Shown here: in pieces, positions 12,110 through 32,657 of the stretch
Position numbering within the stretch: the first letter of the stretch is position 1
How the letters are laid out: each line of letters opens with the position of its first letter
Assembly: GCF_005869855.1 (NCBI RefSeq)
Contig: NZ_SZNH01000003.1
Span: 62,001 to 126,000, forward strand
From: Nostoc sp. PA-18-2419
Lineage (GTDB): Bacteria; Cyanobacteriota; Cyanobacteriia; Cyanobacteriales; Nostocaceae
Direction of reading: 5' to 3'
DNA length: 64,000 bases
Position numbers and translations under genes: made by a program
The notes under the pieces: model-generated
The model's database searches: none
Told to the model about the DNA's origin: nothing
What the model saw: the letters and a program-made list of their open reading frames with translations, nothing else

Positions 12110-12119
12110 TACCAATTTT

Positions 12120-12221
12120 AGATTTGGAATTTTAATTTTGGATTGTCTGTTTTGACAATCACACTTTTGAGATTTGGGATTTTAAATTCTGGATTGTCTG
12201 TTTTAACGATCGCACTGTTTG
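12120..12221. repeat. Two-copy ~51-bp tandem repeat between pilM and pilN
   Basis: AGATTTGGAATTTTAATTTT...GGATTGTCTGTTTTGACAAT (12120-12169) is repeated at once as AGATTTGGGATTTTAAATTC...GGATTGTCTGTTTTAACGAT (12170-12221), ending CACTTTTG / CGCACTGTTTG. The ORF track reads it as a hydrophobic N-terminus of PilN, which I reject. Each copy has a TTGACA or TTAACG hexamer, so a secondary promoter is possible but not shown. Confidence 0.75.
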
Positions 12222-12265
12222 AGAATTCTCAAACCATAATATTTATCTTTAGTTGGTGTGAGAAA

Positions 12266-13039
12266 ATGTACAGTTTGGATGTTAACTTTCTTAAAGACCG
12301 CCCAGCCTATCAAAAAAAGCCTGACAAAAAGAGAGGAATGGCTCTAAGCCTTCCTGGAGGAAATTTAACACCAGTCTATATCGGAGCTGCATTAGGTGTA
12401 GGTCTTCCAGGTTTATTCGGAATTGCTTGGTGGTTATTGCAAGGAAAGATTGTTGAATTAGAGGGCACAGTAGCACAACTGGACCAGGAAAGCAAGAGAT
12501 TAGATACACAAATCGGCAACCTGAATCAAATCAAAGCAGAGACGAGCACAATTAAAGGGGAAACTCAAGCTTTAGTTACTGTATTTGACCAGATTCGACC
12601 TTGGTCAGCAATGTTGCAAGATTTGCGCGATCGCATTCCTGCAGCAGTGCAAATTGAAAATATCAAGCAAATCCCACCCATTGCGGTGGTGGAAGGTCAG
12701 CCACCCAACAATCCAGCCGGAGGATTAGAAATTACCGGACTAGCTCGTTCCTTTAACGATGTCAATGATTTCTTATTGAGTTTGCAACAGTCTCAATTTT
12801 TGAAGTCCTCAGAAAGCAGAATTATTACTGCAACCTTAGTAGATGCTCCGGTTACATCAGGTGTAGCTGCGATTCCTGGTGTCATAATTAAGCCGCCACA
12901 AGTCGTTAAATACACTATTCAATCGAGTATGAATGATGTTCCAGCTTCAGAATTAATTCGGGAGTTGGAAAAAAAAGGCACAGTCGGGTTAGTAGCTCGA
13001 ATTCGTACTATGCAACAAACAGGAGTCATTTCAAAATGA
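12266..13039 (+). CDS. pilN: Type IV pilus assembly protein PilN
   Basis: PilN is a bitopic inner-membrane protein whose short cytoplasmic tail binds PilM and whose periplasmic coiled coil pairs with PilO. Starting at ATG 12266 gives MYSLDVNFLKDRPAY, which fits the conserved N-terminal PilM-binding motif (hxLNLL/FLKDR-like). One span follows (YIGAALGVGLPGLFGIAWWLL), then a coiled coil (LEGTVAQLDQESKRLDTQ) and a ferredoxin-like end. The track start at 12143 would add 41 residues encoded by the tandem repeat and is unlikely. The stop overlaps the pilO start by 4 bp (ATGA). Confidence 0.9.
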   Translation: MYSLDVNFLKDRPAYQKKPDKKRGMALSLPGGNLTPVYIGAALGVGLPGLFGIAWWLLQGKIVELEGTVAQLDQESKRLDTQIGNLNQIKAETSTIKGETQALVTVFDQIRPWSAMLQDLRDRIPAAVQIENIKQIPPIAVVEGQPPNNPAGGLEITGLARSFNDVNDFLLSLQQSQFLKSSESRIITATLVDAPVTSGVAAIPGVIIKPPQVVKYTIQSSMNDVPASELIRELEKKGTVGLVARIRTMQQTGVISK

Positions 13040-13800
13040 CGCTGAGTGATGATTTAAATTTTGCCGAACAAGCTGGAGAATTTGATGCACAAACCCCAGC
13101 TTACCCCGTGGTATTTGGCATTGCTTTCACACCAAAAATTATCGGTATTTTATTAGGGGTAATTGGTTTAGCAGGAGGAGGATATATATTCTTAAACCTG
13201 TTAATGCCAGCTTGGGAAAGCTATCAGCAACAGCAAGCAAAAGCCTCGGAACTCCAAGGACAAATAGAGCAAAAGAAACTTAATATCAAACAGATTGATA
13301 AAGTTAAAGAGGAATTAGCACAGGCAAAACAGCAAAAAGTTCAGGTTTTAGGTTTATTTGCTAGTGAAAAAACTTTAGATACATTGCTGCTAGATGTGAA
13401 TCGATTAGTTGAATCTGGTAATGCTCAAACTCCGATTAATGGAGTCAGAGCCAAACTCAAGAAGTTTGTGCCAGTTTCTCAAAAGCCAGAACCAATTATT
13501 GATGGAAGTTTGGGAAAACAAGTTGACGGCAAACTAGAACGCAGCAGTATTAGTGCCGAAATTACAGGAACCTATGAACAAACACAATCAATAGTTCGTA
13601 ACATTGAGCGTTTACAGCCTTTGTTGATAGTTAAAGATTATCAATCAACATTAGCTCCATTAGAGGTTAGATCCCCATTAGATAAAACACCAGTGAAAAT
13701 GGGGCCAACAGAGATTAATACATCATTCCAATTACAAGCATTGATGCCACTTAGTCCCGAAGAAATAGCAGCGGCAGCTAAAACTGCTGCCAAAAAGTAA
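13036..13800 (+). CDS. pilO: Type IV pilus assembly protein PilO
   Basis: This 254-aa protein has a 45-residue cytoplasmic part, one membrane span (IIGILLGVIGLAGGGYIFL), a coiled coil (QQQQAKASELQGQIEQKK) and a periplasmic ferredoxin-like domain, the standard PilO layout. It pairs with PilN to form the inner-membrane alignment complex of the type IV pilus. It is translationally coupled to pilN by the ATGA overlap. No pilP gene follows; the next gene is pilQ. As I understand it, absence of PilP is usual in cyanobacteria. Confidence 0.9.
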   Translation: MTLSDDLNFAEQAGEFDAQTPAYPVVFGIAFTPKIIGILLGVIGLAGGGYIFLNLLMPAWESYQQQQAKASELQGQIEQKKLNIKQIDKVKEELAQAKQQKVQVLGLFASEKTLDTLLLDVNRLVESGNAQTPINGVRAKLKKFVPVSQKPEPIIDGSLGKQVDGKLERSSISAEITGTYEQTQSIVRNIERLQPLLIVKDYQSTLAPLEVRSPLDKTPVKMGPTEINTSFQLQALMPLSPEEIAAAAKTAAKK

Positions 13801-13801
13801 T

Positions 13802-13857
13802 TATGAGTTATAAGTTATGAGTTATGAGTTATGAACTATAAGTTACGAGCTATCATT
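13802..13857. repeat. Heptanucleotide tandem repeat (TATGAGT)n between pilO and pilQ
   Basis: Eight consecutive 7-mers follow the pilO stop: TATGAGT, TATAAGT, TATGAGT, TATGAGT, TATGAAC, TATAAGT, TACGAGC, TATCATT. This is a classic short tandemly repeated repetitive (STRR) array of filamentous cyanobacteria. It separates pilQ from pilMNO by 188 bp and could affect mRNA stability, though nothing in the sequence proves a role. Confidence 0.85.
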
Positions 13858-13988
13858 TCTAACTATTCAATCCTAACTCTTCACTCCTAGCTAAATTATT
13901 CTTAACTCCTTACTTTCAAAAATCAACACTCATAGCCAACTGCTCAAAATGTTTGTCAACAAGGTTTTATTTAGGTGAGGAATGAACT

Positions 13989-16367
13989 GTGAAACAGCTT
14001 CACGGTAAAAATTTTATATTAGGTACTGCTGCTTTTGTCTTTTTTGCAGCTCAACCAGCTTGGGCACAAATTGCTCAAGTTACTAATGTGCAGTTAAATC
14101 CAGCTAATGGTGGAGTTAGCATTGTTTTGAAAACTTCTTCAGGGTCGCGTCCCCAAGTTTTCACTACAAAAAGAGGTAAGTCTTTAGTTGCAGACATTAT
14201 TAATACTCAATTACGATTACCACAAGGTAATAGTTTTCGTCAAGATAGTCCAGCGCCAGGAATTGCTTCGGTTGAAGTTAGTCAACTTGATGCCAATAGT
14301 GTCAGGGTGACGGTAACTGGCAGCAACAATGTGCCTGGCAGTGAACCGGTGGTGCGATCGGCAAATGGAATTACACTCAGCTTTAGCCCATCTGCTGGCA
14401 CCACCGCTGCCTCACCAACGCCAACAAGACCAACATCGACACCACCGCCTGCTTCTACACATGCCCAACCAAGTCAAAAGCCAGACGTTCTCGTTCCCAA
14501 CCCGCAAGTCACTATTGACGGACAACCTGCACAAGCTGCTGGTCCAGGTCAACCTGTGAGTCAGGCTCCACCTTTCTTACCCAGAGCCGTCGCCCCACCG
14601 GTGGGAGATATTGCTATTTCCGCTACCGATGCTTCTCCTAGCACCATTGATTTGGGAACACAGGAACGCGTTCCCCGTTTAGTATTGCGAGATGCGCCGG
14701 TGCGTGAGGTTTTGTCATTACTTGCCCGTGCTGCCAATTTGAATCTAGCTTATGTTGGAAGTGAGCAAGGTGGTGGAGGTCAGCAAGGTGCTGCTGCACC
14801 AGCAACCTCTCAAACCATTTCTTTAGATATAGAAAACGAGCCAGTGCAAGATGTATTTAACTACGTCTTGCGCTTGAGTGGTTTAGAAGCTAACCGCAAT
14901 GGTCGCACAGTTTTTGTAGGGGCTAAATTACCCAATGCAACTCGTGACATGGTTATGCGTAGCTTACGACTCAATCAGGTAGCAGTCGATGTTGCCCTAA
15001 ACTTTTTGGTCGGCTTGGGAGCAGAAAGTGCGGTCAGCCGCGAACGACAAGTTACCAGTGTTAGTGCTATACCTGTAGGTACTGGAGTTGCGCCTATCAC
15101 CCAAACTCAGACGACCACCGAAACCAGAATTGAACCTCAACGCGTTGATTTTAAAGACTCTAGCCCATTGTTGAGAGGCTTACAGGCATTAGGAGATGAG
15201 CGCACCAATTCTCTGACTTTGATTGGGCCTCCCAGACTAGTTGAGATGGCAATGTCTCAACTAACTCAGCTTGATATCCGGCGTCGTCAAGTGGTAGTCA
15301 ACGTCAAGATTATCGATGTTAACCTCTTGAATACCCAAGACTACAACACTAGCTTTTCCTTTGGAGTTGGCAACAACTACTTTACAAATGATGGTGGTGC
15401 AGCATCTCTAAATTTTGGCGGTTCGAGACCAGCTACAAGAGCTGAAGCATCAACCAGTATCACTAGTACACCTACAACTGCTAATCCACTTCAGGGCTCA
15501 AATGTTTTTATAGACCCAAATACAGGAACAGCTACCGCTGGCGTAAACTCTAATCCTACACAACCAGGTATTACAGCATTTACACCAGGAACAAGTACAA
15601 CTGCAATTGTCCCAACAGCGATTGATCCTGTTACTGGTACACCTACTCAGTTTCAGCAGCAAACCACGACAACCCCTGCAACAACCACATACGCGTTGCC
15701 TACCATATTCCAGTTCCCTAAGCGTCTTCTCGCTAGCTTGCAGGCTCAAGTCCAAAATGGCAACGCCAAGATTTTGACAGACCCAACCTTAATTGTTCAA
15801 GAAGGTCAAACCGCTAATGTCAATCTGACTCAGGAAGTCGTAGGCAATATTAAAAGGGAAATCGTTCGCGATGATAATATTGCTACAGAAACGATTTCAG
15901 CGGAAAAAGACAGAGTAGGTTTAACCTTGGCTGTCAAAATTGACCGAATTGATGATAATGGTTTTGTCTCTCTATCGGTAGCTCCTGTTGTCAAAGCACC
16001 CCAAGCTCCAGCTACTATCAATGTTGGAGGTGGTGGTAGCCAACAAATATTCTTAGTGTCTGAGCGCTCTCTTAATTCTGGCTTGATTCGCCTGCGAGAT
16101 GGTCAGACTCTAATTCTCTCAGGTATCATTCAAGACGCAGACCGGACAACTGTCTCTAAAATTCCTATTTTAGGAGATCTTCCGCTTATTGGTTCGTTGT
16201 TTAGAAGTACAAACAGACAGAACCAGCGCAATGAGGTCATTGTGTTGCTCACACCTCAAATTATGGATGACTCTGAGAACTCCTCTTATGGCTATAACTA
16301 CAGTCCCAGCCCACAAGTGCGGCAAATTCTTGAGCGTCGGGGCTTGAAGATTCCTACCGGGCAATAA
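13989..16367 (+). CDS. pilQ: Type IV pilus outer-membrane secretin PilQ
   Basis: The 792-aa precursor has a signal peptide (cut after PAWA, about residue 26), an AMIN domain (about 30-130) for peptidoglycan binding, a Pro/Thr-rich linker, an STN-like module (PRLVLRDAPVREVLSLLARA), an N-domain with NQVAVDVALNFLVGLGAE, and a C-terminal secretin core containing LILSGIIQD and VSKIPILGDLPLIGSLFRS, the secretin signature. It forms the ring through which the pilus, and probably polysaccharide, leaves the cell. A Thr/Pro/Gln-rich insert (about 490-570) lies in the core. GTG at 13989 follows GGTGAGGAATGAACT. Confidence 0.95.
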   Translation: MKQLHGKNFILGTAAFVFFAAQPAWAQIAQVTNVQLNPANGGVSIVLKTSSGSRPQVFTTKRGKSLVADIINTQLRLPQGNSFRQDSPAPGIASVEVSQLDANSVRVTVTGSNNVPGSEPVVRSANGITLSFSPSAGTTAASPTPTRPTSTPPPASTHAQPSQKPDVLVPNPQVTIDGQPAQAAGPGQPVSQAPPFLPRAVAPPVGDIAISATDASPSTIDLGTQERVPRLVLRDAPVREVLSLLARAANLNLAYVGSEQGGGGQQGAAAPATSQTISLDIENEPVQDVFNYVLRLSGLEANRNGRTVFVGAKLPNATRDMVMRSLRLNQVAVDVALNFLVGLGAESAVSRERQVTSVSAIPVGTGVAPITQTQTTTETRIEPQRVDFKDSSPLLRGLQALGDERTNSLTLIGPPRLVEMAMSQLTQLDIRRRQVVVNVKIIDVNLLNTQDYNTSFSFGVGNNYFTNDGGAASLNFGGSRPATRAEASTSITSTPTTANPLQGSNVFIDPNTGTATAGVNSNPTQPGITAFTPGTSTTAIVPTAIDPVTGTPTQFQQQTTTTPATTTYALPTIFQFPKRLLASLQAQVQNGNAKILTDPTLIVQEGQTANVNLTQEVVGNIKREIVRDDNIATETISAEKDRVGLTLAVKIDRIDDNGFVSLSVAPVVKAPQAPATINVGGGGSQQIFLVSERSLNSGLIRLRDGQTLILSGIIQDADRTTVSKIPILGDLPLIGSLFRSTNRQNQRNEVIVLLTPQIMDDSENSSYGYNYSPSPQVRQILERRGLKIPTGQ

Positions 16368-16467: not shown

Positions 16468-16488
16468 CCCACAGCTTGAAGCTGTGGG
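16468..16488 (+). terminator. Hairpin after pilQ (possible terminator or IS-end remnant)
   Basis: CCCACAGC TTGAA GCTGTGGG is a perfect 8-bp stem with a 5-nt loop about 100 bp after the pilQ stop, followed by ATTATTGTTT, a weak U-rich tail. It may end the pilMNOQ transcript. Similar CCCACAGCTT-type hairpins also occur at ends of IS200/IS605-like elements, so a remnant end is the other reading. Confidence 0.5.
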
Positions 16489-17015: not shown

Positions 17016-17158
17016 TTTTTGTTGTTAACTAAAAAACCGTATTGGCATCTTACCTGATTTCAGAATAAATACTCCCGAAACTCCCAAAATTTTGGAAAAT
17101 AATAAAGTAAGTGAGTATCACAAGACTCATTTGATTTCCTCATTTATTCTAGGAAAAT

Positions 17159-20100: not shown

Positions 20101-20689
20101 ATTATTGCATCCGCAAGTAATTTATGGTTATTTTCCTTGTCAAGCTGAAAGAAATTTTCTACACATATATAACTCAGAGAACCAATCACAACAGGTAGCA
20201 ACTTTCGAGTTTCCCAGACAAAAGTCGTTAAGACGGCTATGCATAGCAGATTTCTTCGCACCGAAAGAGTCGGGAATTATTGATGTTTTCCCCATGCAGG
20301 CGGTAACTGTAGGTGAAATTGCAACAGAATTTGCCCAAAAGCTTTTCTCAGATAATAAGTACACTGATTACCTGTATTTTCACGGTATAGCTGTGCAGAT
20401 AGCGGAGGCATTAGCAGAGTGGACACATGCTAGAATTCGCCGTGAATTAGGCTTTAGTCGAGAGGAACCAGATAATATTCGGGATATATTGGCACAACGC
20501 TATCATGGTTCGCGGTATAGTTTTGGCTATCCTGCTTGTCCGAATATCCAAGACCAGTATAAGCAACTGGAGTTATTGCAGACTGACAGGATTAACTTAT
20601 ATATGGATGAAAGCGAACAGCTTTATCCAGAACAGTCTACAACGGCGATTATTACTTATCACCCAGTAGCGAAGTACTTTAGCGCATAG
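17159..20689 (+). CDS. metH: Cobalamin-dependent methionine synthase
   Basis: MetH transfers a methyl group from 5-methyltetrahydrofolate to homocysteine through methylcobalamin. All four modules are present in 1176 aa: the homocysteine domain (about 1-320; GAMGTNLQ, zinc Cys in GLNCATGP and [10 protein letters not shown]), the pterin domain (about 340-610; [20 protein letters not shown]), the cap and B12 domains (about 650-880; [11 protein letters not shown] with the cobalt-binding His, then SGLLVKST), and the C-terminal activation domain (about 980-1176; [25 protein letters not shown]). The His in DVHDIG is intact, so it should be active. It sits between the pil and hps clusters without obvious functional link. 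Confidence 0.97.
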
Positions 20690-21246
20690 AATTTCATACC
20701 TTCCTCACCTGAGAAGACGGGAAATTATAGGGATTCTCAGTTGCACGTATAAGTTTTTCATAGGGGTGTACAGCTAGCTGTGCGCCCCTACTAGCTAATT
20801 AGTAATGCTACATAAGATTTATGACTTCTCTAAAAAGTTATAAATCTAAGGCGAACATCTAATTATTTTACACGTAACTGATATCTTTCCTTTAAAAAGT
20901 GGGTATTATAAGCTTGCTTTTCTAACATCATCTTTATAAATTGGTCTGTAAATAAAACATATTTACGCAAATTTACAGTAAAGTTATATTTTTATTATTC
21001 TTCAAAATTGATAGAAATAACTTTAGAAAATCAGTATTTACCGGATAAAATGAACAATTCATAAATGATATAACTTTAATAAATTGTCTGTTTGTTATAG
21101 ATCATTTATTTTTAACTTCATAAAACAAGATGTAATAGTTACATAAATTTAGTCTCAACTCTTGCTGGTCAAATTAATTGTCAGCAGAAACATCAATTTT
21201 GAAAAAATTAAATATCTTCTAAAAACTACTTGCCAGGAAAGCAGCT
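20690..21246. other. Long AT-rich leader region upstream of hpsA, 557 bp
   Basis: Beyond the hairpin at 20762 this region has no ORF. It is strongly AT-rich and ends with AGGAAAGCAGCTATG, a good ribosome site for hpsA. A long non-coding leader is consistent with a regulated (hormogonium-specific) promoter, but I cannot name the sigma-factor motif from sequence alone. Confidence 0.4.
20762..20789. repeat. GGGGCGCACAG hairpin repeat, copy 1 (after metH)
   Basis: AGGGGTGTACAGCT and AGCTGTGCGCCCCT form a 14-bp stem (two G-U pairs) with almost no loop, 73 bp after the metH stop. Nearly the same hairpin recurs at 35640-35667. No T-run follows, so it is either a weak terminator or a REP-like repeat. 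Confidence 0.7.
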
Positions 21247-24200
21247 ATGTCTCGAAAAAGTAAGCTAGTCAAGACAATTCAAAAAACCTTCAGACCAATT
21301 GGTAAAAAGTTTTTATCTACAATTAACAAGCAAATTATTTGGCTACTGCGGACTATTTTTGGTACTCGAAGAAGACGCAGTTCGGTGAATGCTGGCTTTG
21401 TATTGCCAACAGTGGCAATGGTAATTTTGGTAGTTGTGCTGTTAACAACTGCACTTTTATTTCGGTCTTTTGAGCGCTCTAAAAATGCTAGTAATGTCCG
21501 GGTGAATGAAGTGACAATGCAGGCGGCTACCCCTGCCTTAGATAGAGCTAAAGCAAAAATCACTGCATTGTTCGCCGATCCCACTCTGCCACGTTCTGTC
21601 CCATCAAACGTAACGTTATACAATACCTTAGCTTTAACATCCAAACTTCCAGTCTATACATTGGGTGATGAGACCCCCATAACCCTGGCTTATGACATTA
21701 ATAAAAACAATTCCATTGAAGCGGCTAATACTATAGCTTTAGAAAATAGAGAAAACCTCACAACTGCTTGGAAATTTCCTGCTGATACAGATAATAACGG
21801 TAAATTTGACAGTTTTATTCTCTACGGCATTTACTTCCGCACTCCCCCCCAAACTGGTACAACCCAAACTAGAAAGAGAACACCGCTAGATGCTAGAACT
21901 CCTCCTATGCTGCTAGCTAAAGCAGGTGGAACCTGTGATGTTGCAGGTGAAACCAGTGCCAGTTTAGTAGGCTCTTCTGGTTGGTATAAACTAGCAACTG
22001 GCGAATTGAAAAAAAGCTTTTTCGTATATACAGCAACAGTTCCCATTAGTAGTATAAGTAGTCTTGATACAACTAAATATGAAGAGTATCGAGGTAATAA
22101 AGGCTTCTCAGCTTTAGAAATGCAACAAGACCGCAGTCAAGTTCCTATTACTAATAATGCTGTAGTTTATGAGGATGATTTAGATATTACACCTGGTCCT
22201 AGATTCCGTTTGAATGGACGCATTTTCACTAACAGTAATTTATTAATGGGAAAAAGTAATCAAGATATTACGCTATTTCAGGTCAGCAGTAGATATTCTT
22301 GTTATTACGAGCGAGAAAACGGTCAAATAATTGTTGGTGGTAATGTTGCAGGTAATGGGCCAATAAGTGCCTCAGATACCGGAGCAATTCAAGTAGATTT
22401 ATTTAAAGAAAATGGTGTCCCTACCCAAACATCAACTGGAAGTACAAATAAATCTACCTCGAATAATAAACCAAATGAAGTTGCTTATAACAGTCAAGCC
22501 TATGCTCAACGTATCGATTTGTTGGTAAATGCACAACTAGCTCACGCTACAACTACTGACCCCCAAGAGGTCGAAGATAATAGAACCAAGCGGCTTGCAG
22601 CTGACCCCAGCTTAGATTCAGATAAGGTACGTCAAGAAGAACTGCAAACCTACTTTAAAAAACGTACTAGACGCGTGCCTTTTAAAGAAGTACCTTATGG
22701 TAGTGATGGCAAAGGTACTTATACTACAGCAAATGTTCTGCAAGATTATAATACTTCATCAAGAAGTAACAGTTTACGTCCACCAGATAGCTGGATATAT
22801 CCTACGGATACCAATACAACACTGACGCTAAATACATCAGAACTAGCTGCTACAGACCCAGATACTTTAAAAACTTCTCCTGTAATAGAATCACGGTTAG
22901 GCGATCGCATTGTAGTAGGTAACAATCTACCTGAACTCAAATGGGACAGTACAAAAGCAATTTTTGTGGGAGAGGAACAACCCGAATCCATCACCAGTGT
23001 GACGTGGACTGGTAGTACTAAAACTCGGACTCGTACTACTAGCGTTAAACAGTTAGCAGATTTGGGGGTAACCGGACGTGACGGATTCTGGGAAATAGCA
23101 GCTGCTTCACCCCGCGCTGATGCCCTTGATGTCAACGGTGGACTACGAGTAATTACAGGTGCAGGAATATATAGAATTACAAATTCTGGACTACCCTTTC
23201 CTCGACCAACACCACTTGACGACCTAAGCACAATAGACGTACAGGAAAGCATTGGTACGGTAGTCTGGCCTGATACTATGCCTATGGTTGTACCCGATTC
23301 GAGCGATCCTCTCAACGGTACGCCAAAACGTGGTGATTTGGTAATGCGTGCTACAGCAGTTTATCACTACAACAGTGATTCTTATGCTCCTTCAGCGGCC
23401 ACACCAGACGATTACCAAGCACCCATAGCTTGTGTAAGTAGCTACTACAACCCTACGAATCAGGCAACAGCAACTACAAATACCTACAATCCCCGCGATT
23501 TAACGACGGTAGCAGCATCTAACAATGGTATTGTTTACACTGTTCCTACTACTACATCTGCTGGTGTAACTAGAGGACAGACAGTAGATATCAATGGTTT
23601 TTTTACTGTTGCATTTAACGCTAATGATATAACTAACACTAGTGTAACTTTACTAGATCGCTTGAAATATCAAGCCAACTTGGTATTTCCCAATGGTCGC
23701 CTTGTTAATCCTTTACTACGGCAAGCACTGGCCAAAGCAACAAGCAGAAAACTCACTCTCTCTGAGCAATCAGCAATTGACTCTACTATTTGTGCGATCG
23801 CAATTGCTGATGGCTCTGTGAGTCGGGATACTACTCCTGTTATTCCTGATGGCGCTATTAAAGAAACTACATTTCTTGATGCCAGACAAATTAAGGCTAT
23901 AGATAAAGGTGCAGCATTAACTGGAAACTACAATCTAGAAGTTGAACAGCGTCAGCCTTTAGAAATTCGTGCCACTGTTATAAATTTAAATCTGCTTCGC
24001 ACAACTTCAATTACAGGTACTTGGTCTAACGAATATCTGTTACCTAATAGTGGTATTATCTATGCCTCTCGTGATGATGCTCAAAAAGATCGCAGTAGCC
24101 CAGCCAGTGAAAATGTCAGTGCTAGTGATTACTTGCTCGATCCGGAGCGCCGTCCCAACGCCATTATGTTAATTAATGGTAGTAACTTGAGCCGCCAGAA

Positions 24201-26106
24201 TAATTACAGAGCAGAAGAAAAAGGCTTAATTTTAGTCACTGAACTACCAGCCTACGTTAAAGGCAATTTTAATCTACATACTAAGCAGGAATTTAAAGGG
24301 TCTGGTCTTTTACCTGCTCCCAGTGATAGTACTTACGATAGTAAATTTTACACTCGCGCTGTCACTGATCGCGATCCTGACTTTGCTTGTCGGCCTAGTG
24401 ACTCTAGACTACCAAATTGCACAACAGGCGAAACGTGGCGATCTGCATCAGTGATTGCTGATGCTGTTACCTTGCTTTCTGATAACTTCCGTGAAGGTTT
24501 CCGCAATGAAGGTGATTACGACTTGCAAAATAATCAAGGGAGTGATGCTGACACTGTACTTAAAAGACTGAAGGTAGGTTTCTGGAATAACAATTTTGTC
24601 ACTTCATCTAATTTTTTCACTACGTCTAATGATGATTCCTACTACAGAGGTACTCCTACTTCTACTGACTCAGTAAACTATAACAGTTCTTACTTAAATA
24701 ACTTTGTCACACCCATTCAACGCCGAGGGAGTTTTCCAGAGTATGTGATGGAGATGTGCTTTAAAATACCAGTTTCAGAATGTGGAGCAAATGAGTGGTA
24801 TATTGGTTACGATAGCGACAACAACAATACGATCACTGGTAGTGAGAGAGGAATACAATCCTATAATCTTCCAGCAAATGCGGCGGTTGGACAATTAGTA
24901 GCTGGTACTACTGCTCAACCAGCAAAAGCTGGTTTTGAACGATTTGCTCGTAGGGTTGCATTCAAACGAAATAATCTTGGACAACTGGTTGATGCTTCTA
25001 ATCTACCTTTCATAACTTTTAATCAAGGTACTCCTGTTGCACTAGGTATAAAAACAGTATCAGGAAGTAAAGTAGTAGACTATTTTAGTGGCAGTAGCAG
25101 ACCTGAAACAGCACCCAATGCCCTGTGGTTTGCAATTACAACAAGTACTTCTGCTGCCGCACCAGCATTCAACACTAGTGAGATCCAATACAACAATGAC
25201 AATCGTTTATTTTTCAGGTATCCCCAAGTACCAGGTGCTTCGGCCTCTTCGCTGAGGGATTTTCCTGGAAGTACGACAACATCGACACCATTCGTCAGAG
25301 ATGGCTTTTTACAGCCGTTATTAGAACCCATATTGCAATTACAAGTAACAACTGCAACACTACCTCAAACTGGAGGATACGACAGTTTAGCAGGAGATAC
25401 ATCATCCAGTCTTGTTAAAAGTACTAGATGGTTGTCTAAGGCAAGTGAAACAACTTTTAATTTAGTAATTGCGGCTGGTGACACTCCTGCTCGTGTGAAT
25501 CCAACTGCGGGTTCAACTCCAACTACCTACGAAATCAATGGTGGTTTGCATAACTTTGTCCGCTTCCTAGAAAACTGGGATGGTGTTAATGCTAATATCA
25601 ACGGTTCATTCATCCAATTTAAACGCAGTATCTATGCTACTGCACCATTCCAAGTTCTTGTGAGACCAGGACCAACAACTGTTGCTGCAACCTCTTCTAA
25701 CCCTTCTCTTCTTTCTTCTACTGCCAATATTAATAGTATCTTTATTAGAGCTCTGAATACTACAACACCTGGTTATAGATCGGATAGTACTTTCACTACT
25801 AGTGCTGCTGGGGAAGCACCTTATTATATGCCTCCTAACCGTAACTGGGGTTTTGATGTAGCGTTACTGGCGCAAAATCCTGACTTGTTTGCTCAGCGTT
25901 TTGTAATTCCAGCCACAGATCCTCCGAATGAATACTACAGAGAAGTCGGTCGGGATGACCTTTGGGTGCAAACTCTGTTGTGTGCTCTCCAAACTCAAAC
26001 AGGGGATGGGTTTGATACTGCGGACAGTACCTATTTTGGCAATGGTTTCAAATTTGCATTACCTGCAACTGAACGTCCTAGTAACTGCAAACTCCAACCA
26101 TCCTAA
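21247..26106 (+). CDS. hpsA: Hormogonium polysaccharide biosynthesis protein HpsA
   Basis: HpsA is a very large cyanobacterial protein of the hps locus, needed for hormogonium polysaccharide and gliding in Nostoc punctiforme. The 1619-aa product has a basic N-terminus (KKFLSTINKQIIWLLR, GTRRRRSSVNAG) then one membrane segment (FVLPTVAMVILVVVLLTTAL). A Gly-Phe junction precedes this segment, as at a prepilin peptidase site, but position +5 is Thr rather than Glu, a trait of GspK/PilX-type minor pilins. The following VNEVTMQAATPALDRAKAKI also resembles the PilX helix. The rest is a long Asn/Thr/Ser-rich extracytoplasmic region with a few Cys. It heads the hps gene set. Confidence 0.88.
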   Translation: MSRKSKLVKTIQKTFRPIGKKFLSTINKQIIWLLRTIFGTRRRRSSVNAGFVLPTVAMVILVVVLLTTALLFRSFERSKNASNVRVNEVTMQAATPALDRAKAKITALFADPTLPRSVPSNVTLYNTLALTSKLPVYTLGDETPITLAYDINKNNSIEAANTIALENRENLTTAWKFPADTDNNGKFDSFILYGIYFRTPPQTGTTQTRKRTPLDARTPPMLLAKAGGTCDVAGETSASLVGSSGWYKLATGELKKSFFVYTATVPISSISSLDTTKYEEYRGNKGFSALEMQQDRSQVPITNNAVVYEDDLDITPGPRFRLNGRIFTNSNLLMGKSNQDITLFQVSSRYSCYYERENGQIIVGGNVAGNGPISASDTGAIQVDLFKENGVPTQTSTGSTNKSTSNNKPNEVAYNSQAYAQRIDLLVNAQLAHATTTDPQEVEDNRTKRLAADPSLDSDKVRQEELQTYFKKRTRRVPFKEVPYGSDGKGTYTTANVLQDYNTSSRSNSLRPPDSWIYPTDTNTTLTLNTSELAATDPDTLKTSPVIESRLGDRIVVGNNLPELKWDSTKAIFVGEEQPESITSVTWTGSTKTRTRTTSVKQLADLGVTGRDGFWEIAAASPRADALDVNGGLRVITGAGIYRITNSGLPFPRPTPLDDLSTIDVQESIGTVVWPDTMPMVVPDSSDPLNGTPKRGDLVMRATAVYHYNSDSYAPSAATPDDYQAPIACVSSYYNPTNQATATTNTYNPRDLTTVAASNNGIVYTVPTTTSAGVTRGQTVDINGFFTVAFNANDITNTSVTLLDRLKYQANLVFPNGRLVNPLLRQALAKATSRKLTLSEQSAIDSTICAIAIADGSVSRDTTPVIPDGAIKETTFLDARQIKAIDKGAALTGNYNLEVEQRQPLEIRATVINLNLLRTTSITGTWSNEYLLPNSGIIYASRDDAQKDRSSPASENVSASDYLLDPERRPNAIMLINGSNLSRQNNYRAEEKGLILVTELPAYVKGNFNLHTKQEFKGSGLLPAPSDSTYDSKFYTRAVTDRDPDFACRPSDSRLPNCTTGETWRSASVIADAVTLLSDNFREGFRNEGDYDLQNNQGSDADTVLKRLKVGFWNNNFVTSSNFFTTSNDDSYYRGTPTSTDSVNYNSSYLNNFVTPIQRRGSFPEYVMEMCFKIPVSECGANEWYIGYDSDNNNTITGSERGIQSYNLPANAAVGQLVAGTTAQPAKAGFERFARRVAFKRNNLGQLVDASNLPFITFNQGTPVALGIKTVSGSKVVDYFSGSSRPETAPNALWFAITTSTSAAAPAFNTSEIQYNNDNRLFFRYPQVPGASASSLRDFPGSTTTSTPFVRDGFLQPLLEPILQLQVTTATLPQTGGYDSLAGDTSSSLVKSTRWLSKASETTFNLVIAAGDTPARVNPTAGSTPTTYEINGGLHNFVRFLENWDGVNANINGSFIQFKRSIYATAPFQVLVRPGPTTVAATSSNPSLLSSTANINSIFIRALNTTTPGYRSDSTFTTSAAGEAPYYMPPNRNWGFDVALLAQNPDLFAQRFVIPATDPPNEYYREVGRDDLWVQTLLCALQTQTGDGFDTADSTYFGNGFKFALPATERPSNCKLQPS

Positions 26107-26206
26107 AGTATCTCAATGAGAATTTTTACAGCACTTTTCAGGTAAATAAACTACCCCTCACGAAACTTAATCCCAGTCCTTTCTTACCTCTTTCTAACCC
26201 TGACCT

Positions 26207-26270
26207 TTTACGTGGAATAAACCAACGTAAAACCTAACCCCCTAACCCCCTTTGCTAGTAGAGAAGGGGG
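26207..26270. repeat. Two hairpins in the hpsA-hpsB gap
   Basis: TTTTACGT...ACGTAAAA (about 26207-26232) is followed by a CCTAACCCCCTAACCCCC stretch and a second hairpin CCCCCTT (26246-26252) / AAGGGGG (26264-26270). CCTAACCCCC repeats are common in Nostoc intergenic DNA. They may lower read-through from hpsA into hpsBCD; no clean U-run follows. Confidence 0.55.
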
Positions 26271-26396
26271 AAAATCCAAAGCCTCTCTGCTACAAGGACA
26301 GAGGAATAGAAGTGAGATTTTAAAAATCCTGCGATTCGAGCGTATTACACTTGCTGACAAATTGCTGTAAGACATAGCCCTATTGAGGAACTGACC

Positions 26397-27047
26397 ATGA
26401 AGCCACATCAACTACAAGAATCATCTGCCCAGTTTAACGAGTCCGGTTTTACAATTATTGAGTCGTTGGTGGCGATCATCGTGGTTAGCATTTTGCTGGT
26501 AGCGATCGCACCTGTCCTAGTAATCTCAACTGCAACTCGTGTGCAAGCTAGAAGGGTAGAATTGGCAACAGAAGCAGCTAAGGCCCTCGTCAATGGTATT
26601 AATTCTAAAATCGTCTCAGACCCTACAATCACCGTTACATTAACTGCTGATCCAACTAGAAAAGTATCCACCTCAACCAGTGACTATTTACTCAGTAGTG
26701 CGCTGGTTCCTACAACTGCAACCAAGAATACTTTGTATTGCTTTAATAAAAATGGCAGCCTTACTAATCCCAGCTGTACTAGCGATCTGTTTTACATTCA
26801 AGCTATTCGGCTAGCAGTCTCAGGTAGTGACCCTGATAAAGGTCAAGGCTATCGTTTGGGAATTCGGGTGTATCGTTCAGATGCCGAGTTTGATTCTCTA
26901 ACCGCTGCTAATAGTGGAAAAAAAGCAGCAACATTCACAGGCGGATTGGGCGATCGCAAAGCACCACTACTAGAAATGACAACTGAAATTGTCAGGGGTC
27001 AAAGCTCCTATAGCGCTTTGTGTAGTCGCCTTGGTGGTTGTCAATAA
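26397..27047 (+). CDS. hpsB: Pseudopilin HpsB (PilV/GspI-like)
   Basis: The 216-aa protein has a type III (prepilin) signal: NESG before FTIIESLVAIIVVSILLVAI, with Glu at +5, followed by a long amphipathic helix (TATRVQARRVELATEAAKAL), and a small globular part ending in a Cys-rich tail (SALCSRLGGC). This matches PilV/GspI-type minor pseudopilins. In Nostoc punctiforme, hpsBCD encode pseudopilins required for motility and polysaccharide secretion. The hpsC start lies 65 bp downstream. Confidence 0.85.
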   Translation: MKPHQLQESSAQFNESGFTIIESLVAIIVVSILLVAIAPVLVISTATRVQARRVELATEAAKALVNGINSKIVSDPTITVTLTADPTRKVSTSTSDYLLSSALVPTTATKNTLYCFNKNGSLTNPSCTSDLFYIQAIRLAVSGSDPDKGQGYRLGIRVYRSDAEFDSLTAANSGKKAATFTGGLGDRKAPLLEMTTEIVRGQSSYSALCSRLGGCQ

Positions 27048-27112
27048 TTAACCCAGCAAATATAAATGATTTTATTAGTGAGTATCCGTCACTAAGGAGA
27101 AAGTATCACAAA

Positions 27113-28081
27113 ATGAATATACTGAGGTGGCTGTTAACTACTCAGCTAAAATCTTCTCACAAGCAGAACAAAAACAGTGGCTTCACCCTGATTGAATTAC
27201 TAGTGGCTATGATCGTTGCATTCCTAGTAATTACACCGTTATTAGGTTTTATGATCGGCGTTTTAAACACTGACCGTCAAGAACAAGCCAAAGCCAACTC
27301 TGAGCAAGAAATTAAAGCAGCGCTTGACTATATTACTCGTGATCTTCAACAAGCACTATATATTTACGATGATACGACTTCCACAGGCATCATTTCCCAA
27401 ATTCCTACAGTAACAAATGGAGTTCCAGTTCTAATATTTTGGAAACGAGAACTTAGCCAAGACGCTGTTGAGACTAAAAATAGTGGTGGTGTAGTTCAAT
27501 TTAAAGATGATTCTTTTGTCTATTCATTAGTAGCTTACTATTTAATTCAAGACAGTAATTCTAACTGGTCTCAAGCTGCGCGCATTGCCAGATGGGAAAT
27601 TAAAGATGGCGTTACAGATAGTACTGGTAGTAGCTGTAGTGGATTTGCTACAACCGAAAAATATAGCCGATGTCCAGATAAAGGTTTTAAGTCTTTTGAT
27701 TTATCACAAAAGGGCGTAACATTACAAACAAAAATGAATAGTTGGACAAATAGTTTGGCAACAGGGGTAACTTACGATCAAAATCCTGTGGTTCTGGTTG
27801 ATTTTATAGATCAAACAACAACAACACAGGGAGCGCCAGCAGCAACTTGCTCTAGTGGCTTTCAACAATTTCCAGGAACTATTGCAAGAACAGGCTTCTA
27901 TGCTTGTGTCAAGTCAGTTGATGGAAATAATAAAAGTACTGTTGAAGTTTATTTAAGAGGTAACGCGCAAGCTCGCTTAATAAATGATGAAACTAAAGTG
28001 CGTTATGCCCTGAACAAATCTAGTTATTTTCCCAGTGGAAATATAAAGGTGCAGGGACGCAGCTTCATCTTTACGAAATAG
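27113..28081 (+). CDS. hpsC: Pseudopilin HpsC (PilW/GspJ-like)
   Basis: A prepilin site is seen in NSG before FTLIELLVAMIVAFLVITPL, with Glu +5. The following helix, KANSEQEIKAALDYITRDLQ, is typical of PilW/GspJ, the larger minor pseudopilin. The track begins at 27038, overlapping hpsB, but ATG 27113 after AAGGAGAAAGTATCACAAA gives a normal short basic leader (MNILRWLLTTQLKSSHKQ...), so I take 322 aa. It should join HpsB and HpsD at a pseudopilus tip. Two internal Cys-bearing loops may form disulfides in the periplasm. Confidence 0.83.
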   Translation: MNILRWLLTTQLKSSHKQNKNSGFTLIELLVAMIVAFLVITPLLGFMIGVLNTDRQEQAKANSEQEIKAALDYITRDLQQALYIYDDTTSTGIISQIPTVTNGVPVLIFWKRELSQDAVETKNSGGVVQFKDDSFVYSLVAYYLIQDSNSNWSQAARIARWEIKDGVTDSTGSSCSGFATTEKYSRCPDKGFKSFDLSQKGVTLQTKMNSWTNSLATGVTYDQNPVVLVDFIDQTTTTQGAPAATCSSGFQQFPGTIARTGFYACVKSVDGNNKSTVEVYLRGNAQARLINDETKVRYALNKSSYFPSGNIKVQGRSFIFTK

Positions 28082-28119
28082 CTTCTATCTTTGATAAAGA
28101 TTAATAAAATCAGAATAGT

Positions 28120-28833
28120 ATGCAGAATATTTACAGTCTCATAGTTTTAAATTGTTTCTATTTGTACAAGCAAAAAACAAAAATAAAGCAGGAATATTTA
28201 GAAAATAAACACTATAGCGCTCATGACAATCAAGAAGATGCCGGATTTAGCCTGATAGAATTAATTGTAGTAGTACTTATAATCGGAATTTTAGGAGCGA
28301 TCGCAGCTCCCGGTTGGGTTACTTTTGTGAATCGGCAGCAGCTAAATAAAGTTAATGACGCTGTTTTAGCTGCACTACAAGACGCACAGCGTGAAGCTAA
28401 AAAGAAGAAACTTAACTACAGTGTCAGTTTTCAAAAAAATACCACAACCCAAAATATAGAGGTTGCTGTTTATCGTACTGATGCTGGAATTAGTACATGG
28501 AACACATTAGGAAAAGATGCAGGAGCTAATTCTAATAAATTACTGCTAGGCGGAAATCTTAGTGATGAAAATATTGCTAATTCTACTAATAATTCTCCTG
28601 TATCTTATCCTTTAAGTACATCAGCAAAAATTACTTTTGATTATATGGGAACTCTGACTCTGCCAAATAACTTTGGAACAGTCACAGCAGGCACAGAGCC
28701 ACCTGGGTTAAAAATAGTAGTGGCTGTACCAAATGCTGTTAATTCGGCATCGCCTAGTGGCGTAAAACGATGTGTTATTGTGAAAACTCTATTAGGTTCA
28801 ATGGTCACAGGAAAAGACTCTGAATGTAATTAA
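28120..28833 (+). CDS. hpsD: Pseudopilin HpsD (FimU/GspH-like)
   Basis: EDAG precedes FSLIELIVVVLIIGILGAIA, a strong prepilin signal with Glu +5, then NKVNDAVLAALQDAQREAKK, as in GspH/FimU. The C-terminus reads KRCVIVKTLLGSMVTGKDSEC, which the second pseudopilin at 32001 shares in part. The leader before the Gly is unusually long (about 42 residues) if ATG 28120 is used; there is no later in-frame ATG before the site, so an alternative TTG start is possible. Role: minor pseudopilin of the hps system. Confidence 0.83.
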   Translation: MQNIYSLIVLNCFYLYKQKTKIKQEYLENKHYSAHDNQEDAGFSLIELIVVVLIIGILGAIAAPGWVTFVNRQQLNKVNDAVLAALQDAQREAKKKKLNYSVSFQKNTTTQNIEVAVYRTDAGISTWNTLGKDAGANSNKLLLGGNLSDENIANSTNNSPVSYPLSTSAKITFDYMGTLTLPNNFGTVTAGTEPPGLKIVVAVPNAVNSASPSGVKRCVIVKTLLGSMVTGKDSECN

Positions 28834-29006: not shown

Positions 29007-29969
29007 ATGACTGATTGCTTAGATTTTACTGTAGCTATCCCAACTTATAACGGTGAAAGTCGCTTACCTGAACTACTAGAGCGACTAAAAAATCAACTTC
29101 AGACAGAAAATTTATCTTGGGAAATTATCGTTATAGATAATAACAGCACTGATAATACAGCTAAAGTTATTCAAACCTATCAACGAAATTGGCAATGTAC
29201 TTACCCTTTAAAGTATTGCTTTGAAGCCAAACAAGGTGCAGCTTATGCCCGAAAAAAGGCAGTAGCAGAAGCTAAAGGTCAATTAATAGGTTTTTTAGAT
29301 GATGATAATCACCCAATATCAAATTGGGTAGCTACAGCTTATAGTTTTGCCCAAAAATATCCGAAAGCAGGAGCTTATGGTAGCCAGATTCATCCTGACT
29401 GGGAAGTAGAACCACCTGAAAACTTTCAGCGAATCGCTCCATTCTTGGCAATTACAGAACGAGGAAATTTACCTCTATTATATGAACCAAAAAATAGATT
29501 ATTACCTCCTTCTGCCGGACTTGTTATTCGTAAACAAGCCTGGATAGAAAGTGTACCAGATAAGTCTATTTTAACTGGTAGAGTCAAAGGTAATATGCTT
29601 ACCAGTGAAGACTTAGAAATGTTGTCTTATATTCAAAAAGCACGATGGGAAATTTGGTATAACCCAGACATGAAAATTTACCACAAAATCCCAAGCTCAC
29701 GATTACAAAAAGATTATTTAGTTCCATTTTTTAAAGGAATTGGACTTAGCCGTTATGTAACTAGAATGGTGAATATACAACCTTGGTATAGACCAATAGC
29801 TTTTTTAGCTTATATGGTCAATGACTTGCGTAAAATTACTTTCCATTTATTCAGATATCGAACTAATTTAAAACATGATTTGGTAGCTGCTTGCGAAATG
29901 CAACTTTTTTTAAGTAGTTTAATAAGTCCGTTTTATCTTTGGAAAAATGGTTATTTCAGAAAAAGCTAG
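29007..29969 (+). CDS. hpsE: Family 2 glycosyltransferase HpsE
   Basis: This 320-aa GT-A protein begins TVAIPTYNGESRLPELLERL, with IIVIDNNSTDNT (nucleotide-sugar site), KQGAAYARKKAV and FLDDDN (DxD-like metal site). It has no clear membrane span in the catalytic part but hydrophobic C-terminal helices (FLSSLISPFYLWKNGYF) that could touch the membrane. It should add a sugar to a lipid-linked or nascent hormogonium polysaccharide. The next gene is a close paralogue. The order hpsE-F-G after the pseudopilins supports the name. Confidence 0.82.
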   Translation: MTDCLDFTVAIPTYNGESRLPELLERLKNQLQTENLSWEIIVIDNNSTDNTAKVIQTYQRNWQCTYPLKYCFEAKQGAAYARKKAVAEAKGQLIGFLDDDNHPISNWVATAYSFAQKYPKAGAYGSQIHPDWEVEPPENFQRIAPFLAITERGNLPLLYEPKNRLLPPSAGLVIRKQAWIESVPDKSILTGRVKGNMLTSEDLEMLSYIQKARWEIWYNPDMKIYHKIPSSRLQKDYLVPFFKGIGLSRYVTRMVNIQPWYRPIAFLAYMVNDLRKITFHLFRYRTNLKHDLVAACEMQLFLSSLISPFYLWKNGYFRKS

Positions 29970-29985
29970 CAAAAGATTAATTATT

Positions 29986-30978
29986 ATGAATCAACTAAAA
30001 ATTGAAAGTTTAGATATTACTGTAGCTATTCCTACCTATAACGGAGCAACCCGCTTACCTAAGATTTTAGATAGGTTGTTAACTCAGACAGGAGTAGAAA
30101 ACCTTAATTGGGAAATCGTTGTTGTCGATAATAATAGTTCTGACAACACATTTCAAATAATTCAGAATTATCAAGAACTGTATGATGTCAACTCTCATTT
30201 AAGATATTTTTTTGAAAGAGAACAGGGAGCTGCCTTTGCACGACTACGCGCAGTACGCGAAGCTAGAGGTGAACTAATTGCATTTTTAGATGATGATAAC
30301 TTACCTGCACTTGATTGGTTAGCAGAAGCATATACTTTTGGATTACAACATCCTCAAGCAGGTGTTTGGAGTGGACAAATTCATGGTGATTTTGAAGTAA
30401 AACCGCCAGACAACTTTGAAAAAATTCAAGCTTTTTTAGCAATCAGAGAACATGGTTCAAATCCACATTTATTTGATGCAGAGAATTTAAGACTTCCCCC
30501 TGGGGCAGCACTTGTTGTTCGCAAACAAGCATGGTGTGAAAATGTACCAGAACGACCTATTTTAAGTGGAAAGCTCCCTGGTATTTTGGTGCAAGGTGAA
30601 GATTATGAACCATTACTTCACATACATTATGCAGGCTGGCAAATTTGGTATAACCCTACCATGCATACTTACCATCAAATACCGCACTGGCGATTTGAGA
30701 GAGATTACTTACTAGATTTGGCGCGCGGTTGTGGCTTGTGTATTTTTCAATTACGGTTAATAAATACTAAAAATTGGCAAAAACCAATAGTTTTTATAAA
30801 AACTGTTTTAGGAAATTTACGTAGAGTATTGCAGTATTTAATTCAATATAAAGGACAATTAAAAAGTAATTTGATTATCCTGTTTGAAATAGAATTTTAT
30901 TTGGCTAGTATGATGAGTCCTTTTTATTACTTTAAATGTAATATGAGAAAAACTTTTAAAAATAAAGTAGCCATTTAA
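29986..30978 (+). CDS. hpsF: Family 2 glycosyltransferase HpsF
   Basis: This gene is paralogous to hpsE along its whole length: ITVAIPTYNGATRLPKILDR, IVVVDNNSSDNT, EQGAAFARLRAVREARGE and FLDDDNLPALDW. The track start at 29947 overlaps hpsE; ATG 29986 (MNQLKIESLDITVAIP) matches the paralogue's N-terminus better, giving 330 aa. The stop is one base before the hpsG ATG, so translation is probably coupled. It is a GT-A transferase likely acting on the cytoplasmic face of the membrane. Confidence 0.82.
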   Translation: MNQLKIESLDITVAIPTYNGATRLPKILDRLLTQTGVENLNWEIVVVDNNSSDNTFQIIQNYQELYDVNSHLRYFFEREQGAAFARLRAVREARGELIAFLDDDNLPALDWLAEAYTFGLQHPQAGVWSGQIHGDFEVKPPDNFEKIQAFLAIREHGSNPHLFDAENLRLPPGAALVVRKQAWCENVPERPILSGKLPGILVQGEDYEPLLHIHYAGWQIWYNPTMHTYHQIPHWRFERDYLLDLARGCGLCIFQLRLINTKNWQKPIVFIKTVLGNLRRVLQYLIQYKGQLKSNLIILFEIEFYLASMMSPFYYFKCNMRKTFKNKVAI

Positions 30979-30979
30979 G

Positions 30980-32035
30980 ATGATTAATTTTAGTTATAAA
31001 TTACCCAAAGTTTCTGTAATCATACCTGCATACAATAGTGAAAATACTATTACTTATACAATTAATTCTGTATTAAATCAAACTTTTACCGATTTAGAAT
31101 TAATTGTAATTAATGACGGTTCACAAGATTCAACTTTAGAGATTGTTAAAGAAATTAAAGACCCGCGAATCAAAGCATTTTCTTATGCCAACGCTGGCGG
31201 AAATGTTAGTCGTAACAGAGGATTAAATATTGCGGTTGGAGAATTTGTTAGTTTCTTAGATGCTGACGATATTTGGACACCTGAAAAGTTAGAATCTCAA
31301 TTAAAAGCTTTGCAAGAAAACTTGACTGCCAAAGTTGCTTATAGTTGGACTGATTATATTAATGCAAATGGAGAATTTGTGCTTTCAGGAAAACGGATTA
31401 ATGTAAATGGAGATGTTTATGAAAATTTATTGATAAATAACTTTTTAGAGAATGGCTCTAATCCTTTAATTTGTAGAAAGGCTTTGATTACATTAGGCGG
31501 TTTTGATGAATCTTTAACAGCGGCTCAGGATTGGGATATGTGGCTGCGATTAGCATCTAAGTTTAATTTTATATGTGTACCATCTGTACAAATATTGTAC
31601 CGAATTAGTGCTAATTCAGTTTCATCTAATCTTGTCAGGCAGGAAAAAGCTTGCTTGCAACTACTTGAAAGAGCATATCAAGAAAGACCTTCAGCACTTA
31701 ACCAGAGTTGGAACACAAGCATTGCAAATTTATACAAATATCTTACTTGCAAAGCGTTACAAAAGCCATTGAATCGGCAAAAAGGTTTAACTGCTGCTAA
31801 ATTTTTATGGAAGTATTTTCTGAATGATTCTTCAAGATATCAAAATATAAGTTTTAGCTTAAAACTATTATTGAAAATTGCTATAATTCTGATTTTACCT
31901 ACCTTGCTCTACAGTATTACTTCCCAGCGTGAAATAAAAAATCAAGAAAGTGAAATCTTATTAAACAACTGGGTAGTTGAAAAAAGATTAGAAAATAAAA
32001 ATGAATACCCAGGTGCATTTACCGTTTCTAGTTAA
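30980..32035 (+). CDS. hpsG: Family 2 glycosyltransferase HpsG
   Basis: A different GT2 subgroup from hpsE/F: VSVIIPAYNSENTITYTINS, LIVINDGSQDST, NAGGNVSRNRGLNIA, FLDADDIWTPEKLE (DxD) and ALITLGGFDESLTAAQDWDMWLRLA, which holds the acceptor and catalytic ED/WD motif of GT-A inverting enzymes. A hydrophobic segment (LLLKIAIILILPTLLYSI) near the C-terminus may anchor it. It overlaps the following pseudopilin gene by 35 bp. It is assigned as HpsG from position and family. Confidence 0.8.
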   Translation: MINFSYKLPKVSVIIPAYNSENTITYTINSVLNQTFTDLELIVINDGSQDSTLEIVKEIKDPRIKAFSYANAGGNVSRNRGLNIAVGEFVSFLDADDIWTPEKLESQLKALQENLTAKVAYSWTDYINANGEFVLSGKRINVNGDVYENLLINNFLENGSNPLICRKALITLGGFDESLTAAQDWDMWLRLASKFNFICVPSVQILYRISANSVSSNLVRQEKACLQLLERAYQERPSALNQSWNTSIANLYKYLTCKALQKPLNRQKGLTAAKFLWKYFLNDSSRYQNISFSLKLLLKIAIILILPTLLYSITSQREIKNQESEILLNNWVVEKRLENKNEYPGAFTVSS

Positions 32036-32657
32036 TGCAAAAAATCTCTGGACTAATAACCATAGCGATGGCTTTACTCTGCCAGAAACTTTAATAATTG
32101 TTGTATTAATTGGTATCTTAGCTACGCTGGGAATACCAAACTGGATGGCTTTTGTAGCAACTTGCCACCTTAACACTGCCCAAAACGAAGTTTACTATGC
32201 GATACGTCAAGCCCAAAGCCAAGCTACTAAAGAAAAATTAACTTGGCAAGCTAGTTTTCGCATACAAAATGGTGTTATGCAATGGACAGTTCATCAAGCA
32301 CAAGCAACGCAGTTCATTCCTGATGATATTAAAAGCAATAGTAATCTTTGGCACAATCTTGAGTCAAAAATTGGCATTGATGAAGAAGAAAATAATAAAG
32401 GAAAAAAAGAAACAACTTTACGAAAACACACTTCACAGGGAGTATGGCGAGTTATATTTAACTACCAAGGTTGTCCTATATATGAAGTTGGAGATGAGTG
32501 TATTAACACATCGCTAAGAACACTTGGACAGATAACGTTATACAACCAAAATGCTCCAAAAGTTAAACGTTGCGTCTATGTATCTACGATTTTAGGAGCC
32601 ATAAAAACTGGAAAAGATCATCTAAGAGCCAATGACAACGATAAATATTGCTATTAA
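32001..32657 (+). CDS. Second FimU/GspH-like pseudopilin of the hps locus
   Basis: HSDG precedes FTLPETLIIVVLIGILATLG, a prepilin signal with Glu at +5, then NTAQNEVYYAIRQAQSQATK and a soluble domain. The C-terminus KRCVYVSTILGAIKTGKD parallels KRCVIVKTLLGSMVTGKD of HpsD, so the two are paralogues. It starts inside the 3' end of hpsG, so it is co-translated with the glycosyltransferases. The function is presumably an alternative or additional minor pseudopilin. I do not assign an hps letter. Confidence 0.82.
   Translation: MNTQVHLPFLVNAKNLWTNNHSDGFTLPETLIIVVLIGILATLGIPNWMAFVATCHLNTAQNEVYYAIRQAQSQATKEKLTWQASFRIQNGVMQWTVHQAQATQFIPDDIKSNSNLWHNLESKIGIDEEENNKGKKETTLRKHTSQGVWRVIFNYQGCPIYEVGDECINTSLRTLGQITLYNQNAPKVKRCVYVSTILGAIKTGKDHLRANDNDKYCY

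Follow-up and report, generated by a model that had tools for sequence, protein, structure and literature searches.

Sequence comparisons point to HpsA of Nostoc sp. PA-18-2419 as the likely K/PilX-slot subunit of a type IV pilus

The window analysed here is the whole stretch of 64,000 nt from Nostoc sp. PA-18-2419. Within it, the four genes hpsA, hpsB, hpsC and hpsD occupy positions 21247–28833, and the list of open reading frames with their translations confirmed the gene positions of the original prediction (Table 1). For hpsC, translation more likely starts from the ATG at 27113, because the HpsC model begins at residue 27 of the TTG frame. The region immediately 5' of hpsA holds pilMNOQ and metH (window 11003–20689). 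Among 77 loci, at least 15 have metH as the neighbour of hpsA, and the locus numbers of N. punctiforme place pilMNOQ far from hps. A general adjacency of hpsA and pilMNOQ was dropped, as pilQ was found upstream in the nearest relative only (within the 7 kb examined).

Table 1. Features in and around the hps genes, in window coordinates (↓, prepilin site)
Feature	Position	Strand	Support
pilM-N-O-Q-like genes	11003..16367	+	Q gene carries the only secretin of the genome
GGGTATTATAAG, conserved, promoter-like, possible SigJ J-box, 5' of hpsA	20901..20912	+	alignment of Nostocaceae upstream regions; function inferred
hpsA: prepilin-like, putative K/PilX-class minor pilin with giant head, 1619 aa	21247..26106	+	NF038301 full length; N terminus resembles PilX_N-type pilins
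HpsA leader, 50 aa, 14 K/R, zero D/E; predicted prepilin-peptidase cut after Gly50	21247..21396	+	
HpsA mature residues 1–59: alpha-1 (FVLPTVAMVILVVVLLTTALLFRS...) and PilX-like continuation	21397..21573	+	predicted helices; hhalign residues 1–57
HpsA block, residues ~270–385, DLDITPGPRFRLNGRIFTNSNLL, common to K protein of pilA9-12-like cassette	22050..22400 (approximate)	+	hhalign 98%, E 2.8e-13
HpsA C-terminal region, residues ~899–1557, GGLHNFVRFLENW...GSFIQ, common to pilA9-12-like K protein	23941..25917	+	hhalign 99.8%, E 2.2e-28
hpsB: putative I/PilV-class minor pilin, ESG↓FTIIE, 216 aa	26397..27047	+	NF038303; TIGR02523 PilV
hpsC: putative J/PilW-class minor pilin, NSG↓FTLIE, 347 aa from TTG	27038..28081	+	NF038304; PRK10557, GspJ weaker
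hpsD: putative H/FimU-class minor pilin, DAG↓FSLIE, 237 aa	28120..28833	+	PRK10506, GspH; N_methyl over cut-off
Three genes resembling glycosyltransferases, flanked by hpsD and the HpsH-like gene, at the place of hpsE-G	29007..32035	+	translations; corresponding place in the hps locus of Nostoc punctiforme
HpsH-like gene: fifth prepilin of the cluster, SDG↓FTLPE	32001..32657	+	

The classic prepilin sites claimed for HpsB, HpsC and HpsD are all present. HpsB and HpsC passed the NCBIfam equivalogs NF038303 (220.7 bits) and NF038304 (388.8 bits), respectively; HpsD, with no Hps equivalog, passed N_methyl and TIGR02532. Outside the Hps families, the best model for HpsB was PilV TIGR02523 (E 1.7e-7, profile 2–115 of 139), HpsC was recognized by TIGR02599 (6.8e-8), PRK10557 (4.9e-6) and GspJ (4.4e-4), and HpsD by PRK10506 (2.4e-9) and GspH (8.9e-6). 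All these matches are below the families' own cut-offs, and the three proteins appear to lean to the I, J and H classes without amounting to equivalog calls. The identification with PilV/GspI, PilW/GspJ and FimU/GspH in the original prediction thus holds as a leaning, short of the model cut-offs.

HpsA matched the curated NCBIfam model EPS_HpsA (NF038301) over its entire length (1725 bits against a curated cut-off of 400 bits; model positions 1–1503 of 1503). The site region reads ...RRRRSSVNAG↓FVLPTVAMVILVVVLLTTALLFRSFERSKN, i.e., the motif NAG↓FVLPT precedes a hydrophobic helix. Among 35 diverse homologues with lengths between 1,384 and 3,158 residues, G-1, F+1 and P+4 are invariant, the leader varies from 32 to 98 aa, and position +5 is occupied by T (31), M (two), L (one) or V (one), never by Glu. 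The three invariant residues are also kept in all 79 complete loci from named genomes, again with no Glu at +5. There, 77 of 80 loci passed a loose motif filter (FVLPT, FILPT or FLLPT); of the remainder, two have G↓FIIPT and one is broken off at a contig edge. In a non-redundant set of 73 HpsA sequences, the entropy amounts to 2.4–3.3 bits at positions -12 to -3 and to zero at G, F and P. Since these residues are invariant while the leader varies, the G↓F site is not a product of chance. All complete homologues have the G↓F in front of a hydrophobic stretch, as expected of a type III signal peptide (a basic leader ending in Gly, then a hydrophobic alpha-1 starting with Phe or Met), which bears out the site and the prepilin-like helix claimed earlier. 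Pro at +4 is not foreign to prepilins, as the HpsH-like gene of the same cluster has it, too. Exceeding the usual prepilin leader length, the basic leader of 50 residues counts against the explanation favored below. A WLLR segment is conserved within this leader (window 21340–21396), although the leader should be cut off.

The class of the HpsA N terminus was addressed by profile comparison. The query profile, built from 101 HpsA sequences and covering the first 110 residues of the mature protein, aligned without gaps over mature residues 1–57 with seven cyanobacterial K-like (PilX_N-type) minor pilins (hhalign, 95.5%, E 1.5e-8). In the genome search, two of the seven (L166 and L167) scored above the Pfam PilX_N cut-off; the others match PilX_N more weakly or are K-like through DUF7305 and gene context. 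Against HpsB, HpsC, HpsD and E. coli GspH, GspI and GspJ, the same profile gave less than 6% each (GspK, a single sequence, stood outside this set). The score of 53.4 compares with a maximum of 29.0 and a mean of 17.1 in 150 column shuffles, in which the helix columns and the following 42 columns were permuted separately; leaving out the two closest proteins lowered it to 37.4. Conversely, the PilX_N-type proteins L169 and L167 matched the curated HpsA model at positions 32–106 (E 4.7e-5) and 34–93 (E 2.1e-3), respectively. Pfam PilX_N (PF14341) matched two of the 35 single HpsA N termini, the best with E 0.0063, and none passed the cut-off. The DUF7305 part of PilX-type proteins showed no homology to the HpsA C terminus. 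The T2SS_GspK model NF037980 did not match HpsA at E ≤ 1, and membership of HpsA in the GspK family is not supported by sequence; one PilX_N protein (L075) does match GspK with E 2.6e-3. The profile comparison, the shuffles and the reverse matches favor a family tie to PilX rather than to GspK.

PilX, the K-class core minor pilin of T4aP, shares with HpsA a G↓F site without Glu5, the alpha-1 sequence and its amphipathic continuation, and PilX_N-type proteins are, like HpsA, accompanied by H, I and J prepilins. However, whole PilX_N-type proteins measure about 400–550 aa, compared to a leader of about 50 aa and a head of about 1,500 aa in HpsA. GspK of type II secretion (PDB 3CI0) also lacks Glu5 and sits at the tip over I and J, the role proposed here for HpsA, but it is only about 327 aa long. 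Thr+5 had been called exactly the trait of GspK; the absence of Glu5 is indeed common to both, whereas Thr itself is not the trait, with E. coli K-12 GspK having Ile. From the GspK/PilX-like description of HpsA, the relation to PilX_N-type minor pilins and the PilX-like helix after the hydrophobic stretch remain, without a sequence or fold match to GspK; the giant extracellular domain on a K-class subunit is supported as well.

Relatives of the HpsA head were found in a second type of cassette. Four loci from smaller genomes of other cyanobacterial families (L031–L034) carry H-I-J-K genes with K-slot proteins of 815–853 residues, which read G↓Y(V/I)L... and, past the helix, SGF(F/Y)(A/G)AE(A/G)(A/G)LN. 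The profile of these K proteins aligned by hhalign with the C-terminal region of HpsA and with a second block closer to the N terminus (Table 1), and the HpsA model matched two of them with E 6.5e-21 and 7e-19. By these sequence matches, the K-slot protein of the cassette is an HpsA homologue. Synechocystis has the same four-gene layout in pilA9-pilA10-pilA11-slr2018 (pilA12), which is listed among the pilin-like genes (PMC7076178) and required for flocculation (PMC6755745). From gene order alone, the cassette may be equivalent to slr2015-slr2018. The two sets differ in the size of the K protein, which in the pilA9-12 type is about half of HpsA, and in gene order (H-I-J-K vs K-I-J-H in hps). 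In a few Nostocaceae (L074, L075 and L081), hpsA is closely preceded by another minor-pilin cassette, whose first gene in L075 and L081 encodes a K-like protein of 495–505 aa (PilX_N and/or DUF7305) that has Ile at +5.

The mature HpsA of 1,569 residues was modelled by AlphaFold2 in two parts, residues 51–1090 (pLDDT 81, pTM 0.79) and 800–1619 (pLDDT 73), so that a sheet closed by C-terminal strands lies beyond the reach of either. The N-terminal model consists of helices at mature residues 5–32 and 38–59 and strands up to residue 248, making a pilin fold plausible in this part. Many short, closely spaced strands are predicted after mature residue 254, which suggest a solenoid. A fold comparison with GspK gave no support: Foldseek searches of both halves against PDB yielded nothing at E ≤ 0.001, GspK and ComZ included, i.e., at the sensitivity used the head has no solved relative. 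The N-terminal half against a viral library gave nothing at E ≤ 0.001 either. HpsA contained no domain from Pfam (including PilY1, PF05567) or PHROGs, and PDB sequence searches with the HpsA and K-cassette profiles returned chance matches only. In Thermus, the tip pilin ComZ combines a GspK-like fold with a beta-solenoid head (PMC6561018). It resembles HpsA as a K-like pilin with a large head, and HpsA has predicted short strands; in ComZ, the solenoid is inserted before the last strand of the GspK-like pilin domain. However, HpsA is about three times its size and without a fold match to it, and DNA binding is not implied.

Searching the genome for the machinery that these prepilins could serve, we found a single secretin (PF00263, contig 77747–78265, i.e., window 15747–16265), which is the pilQ of the window. 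The genome further encodes one PilB-type ATPase, two more strong PilT-type matches and one prepilin peptidase. Five Glu5-type prepilins are present, a PilA-like protein on another contig, HpsB, HpsC, HpsD and the HpsH-like protein, a count that covers Glu5-type genes and leaves outside any non-Glu5 prepilins without PilX_N similarity. A secretin and ATPase of its own apart from the T4P, as would characterize GspK in a T2SS, is absent. Given this inventory, HpsA-D are most likely the minor pilins that reside in its single T4P. The original prediction of a complete K/I/J/H set is thus supported, but for the minor pilins of the only T4P; for a separate pseudopilus, the genome offers no second machine.

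Of 292 cyanobacterial genomes, 90 gave an HpsA match at E ≤ 0.001. Strong matches to HpsA (E < 1e-45) and to HpsC (E < 1e-15), counted from two tables, occur in the same 75 of the 292 genomes, neither ever alone. Where the sequence extends more than 5.5 kb beyond hpsA (66 loci), it contains B in 65, C in 66 and D in 65. Most of the 60 Nostocaceae genomes possess four or five Glu5-type prepilin genes, and two of about 4 Mb (G051 and G322) possess none. G051 also lacks HpsA and HpsC, which suggests that pili and hps minor pilins were lost jointly there. In sum, HpsA is most likely, as judged from sequence, the K/PilX-slot end-cap subunit of the only type IV pilus of the cell.

We therefore consider it probable that HpsA, HpsB, HpsC and HpsD are the K, I, J and H core minor pilins of this T4P, with the HpsA head at the tip. 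The invariant site without Glu5, the PilX- and pilA12-type homology, the linkage and co-occurrence with I, J and H prepilins and the single machine are observed, and we infer HpsA cleavage, priming, tip position and the ligand of the head. Prepilin peptidase would cut HpsA after Gly50. Without Glu5, alpha-1 of HpsA could form no salt bridge to a subunit above it, and HpsA would become the first, outermost subunit; tip complexes are capped by a subunit without Glu5 (PMC10191384). HpsB, HpsC and HpsD would stack underneath and prime PilB-driven assembly on the platform, and the pilus would leave via the PilQ secretin with the HpsA head of about 1,500 residues ending at the tip; its most plausible binding partner there would be the substrate or hormogonium polysaccharide (HPS). 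Pili and HPS are mutually dependent in N. punctiforme (PMC9239167). Priming could account for this dependence: in the absence of HpsA-D no pilus would form, and HPS production would be off along with the motor. HPS binding by a head at the tip, or a pseudopilus free of PilA, could account for it instead, and the explanation of polysaccharide release in the original prediction is hypothetical. Since certain minor-pilin sets elsewhere are dispensable for piliation, belonging to such a set does not necessarily imply a role in priming.

Instead, the shared PilB and PilQ could carry a short pseudopilus of HpsA-D that contains no PilA and works as a piston or plug for HPS release as in a T2SS. Such a tip has the K-I-J-H make-up, PilB is needed for HPS in N. 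punctiforme, and HPS release, though moderately reduced, persists in a sigF mutant in which PilA is undetectable (PMC6495340, PMC11407516). We judge this to be unlikely, considering the missing second machine, the lack of a major pseudopilin candidate apart from the PilA-like gene and HpsH, and the later identification of a Wza-type HPS exporter, with a review calling the export route unresolved (PMC12288463). Even less probable, in our view, is that HpsA stays uncleaved as a single-pass inner-membrane protein that holds a periplasmic domain near the secretion machine, with an incidental G↓F. The long, strongly basic and partly conserved leader would fit such an anchor, and HpsA has been called a hypothetical membrane protein (PMC6495340), but the invariance of G-1, F+1 and P+4 beside a varying leader, the similarity of alpha-1 and its continuation to PilX_N-type prepilins well above shuffles, and the obligate company of I/J/H prepilins argue against it.

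In a stronger form of the tip-pilin explanation, HpsA would merge the roles of PilX and PilY1, its head acting in adhesion and mechanosensing in a cell without PilY1. HpsA falls in the size class of PilY1 proteins. Diderm T4aP tips otherwise bear PilY1 (PMC10191384), and PilY1 (PF05567) was found in none of 117 cyanobacterial genomes, a count without a working positive control, as no control genome gave a match either. The HpsA head has neither sequence nor fold similarity to PilY1 or any adhesin, and we hold this extension to be tentative and rather doubtful. A fused tip device, in which a K-class pilin carries a PilY1-sized head of a fold unlike solved structures that binds the cell's own HPS, appears still more speculative and improbable. 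If it were true, the pilus would grip the slime laid by the same cell, and synthesis would receive feedback from slime binding at the tip.

HpsA was described as "functionally unknown" (PMC4284469), and according to a 2025 review it is hard to tell which cyanobacterial minor pilins form the tip complex (PMC12288463). In the literature searched, HpsA is named without an assigned role, and an earlier PilX-like statement may exist in hps papers outside that search; the placement in the K slot is new relative to the literature searched. It would define a candidate tip of four subunits for gliding filaments, link the hps set to the pilA9-12 set needed for flocculation and motility of Synechocystis, and offer a testable handle on the connection between pili and slime in gliding cyanobacteria, including the interdependence of pili and HPS.

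Published regulation is in line with the pilin assignment. In N. punctiforme, hpsA-D share their requirement for SigJ with pilB-C, pilM-Q and pilT2, the effect on hpsE-G being only moderate (PMC6495340); this dependence groups hpsA-D with the pil genes and not with the glycosyltransferase genes. The sequence TGGGTA-N-TATAA, which contains GGGTATTATAAG, aligned in 15 of 15 Nostocaceae about 346 bp before hpsA and resembles the extended -10 element (J-box) described for SigJ, making it a possible promoter of this type. A second conserved block, AATGATATAAC, is located about 180 bp 5' of the hpsA start.

Additionally, several deviating homologues were noted. A plasmid search found no HpsA on plasmids. 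The largest homologue (L046, 5243–14719) comprises 3158 aa, double the usual length, and keeps the G↓FVLPT site. In two genomes (G149 and G155), the HpsC matches are split. In the control genome of Deinobacterium chartae, the HpsA profile matched below the cut-off, so HpsA-like K proteins may reach as far as Deinococcota. Three genomes (G103, G149 and G087) have shortened hpsA frames of 1141–1241 aa that lack model positions ~1070–1330 and represent a natural deletion in the head.
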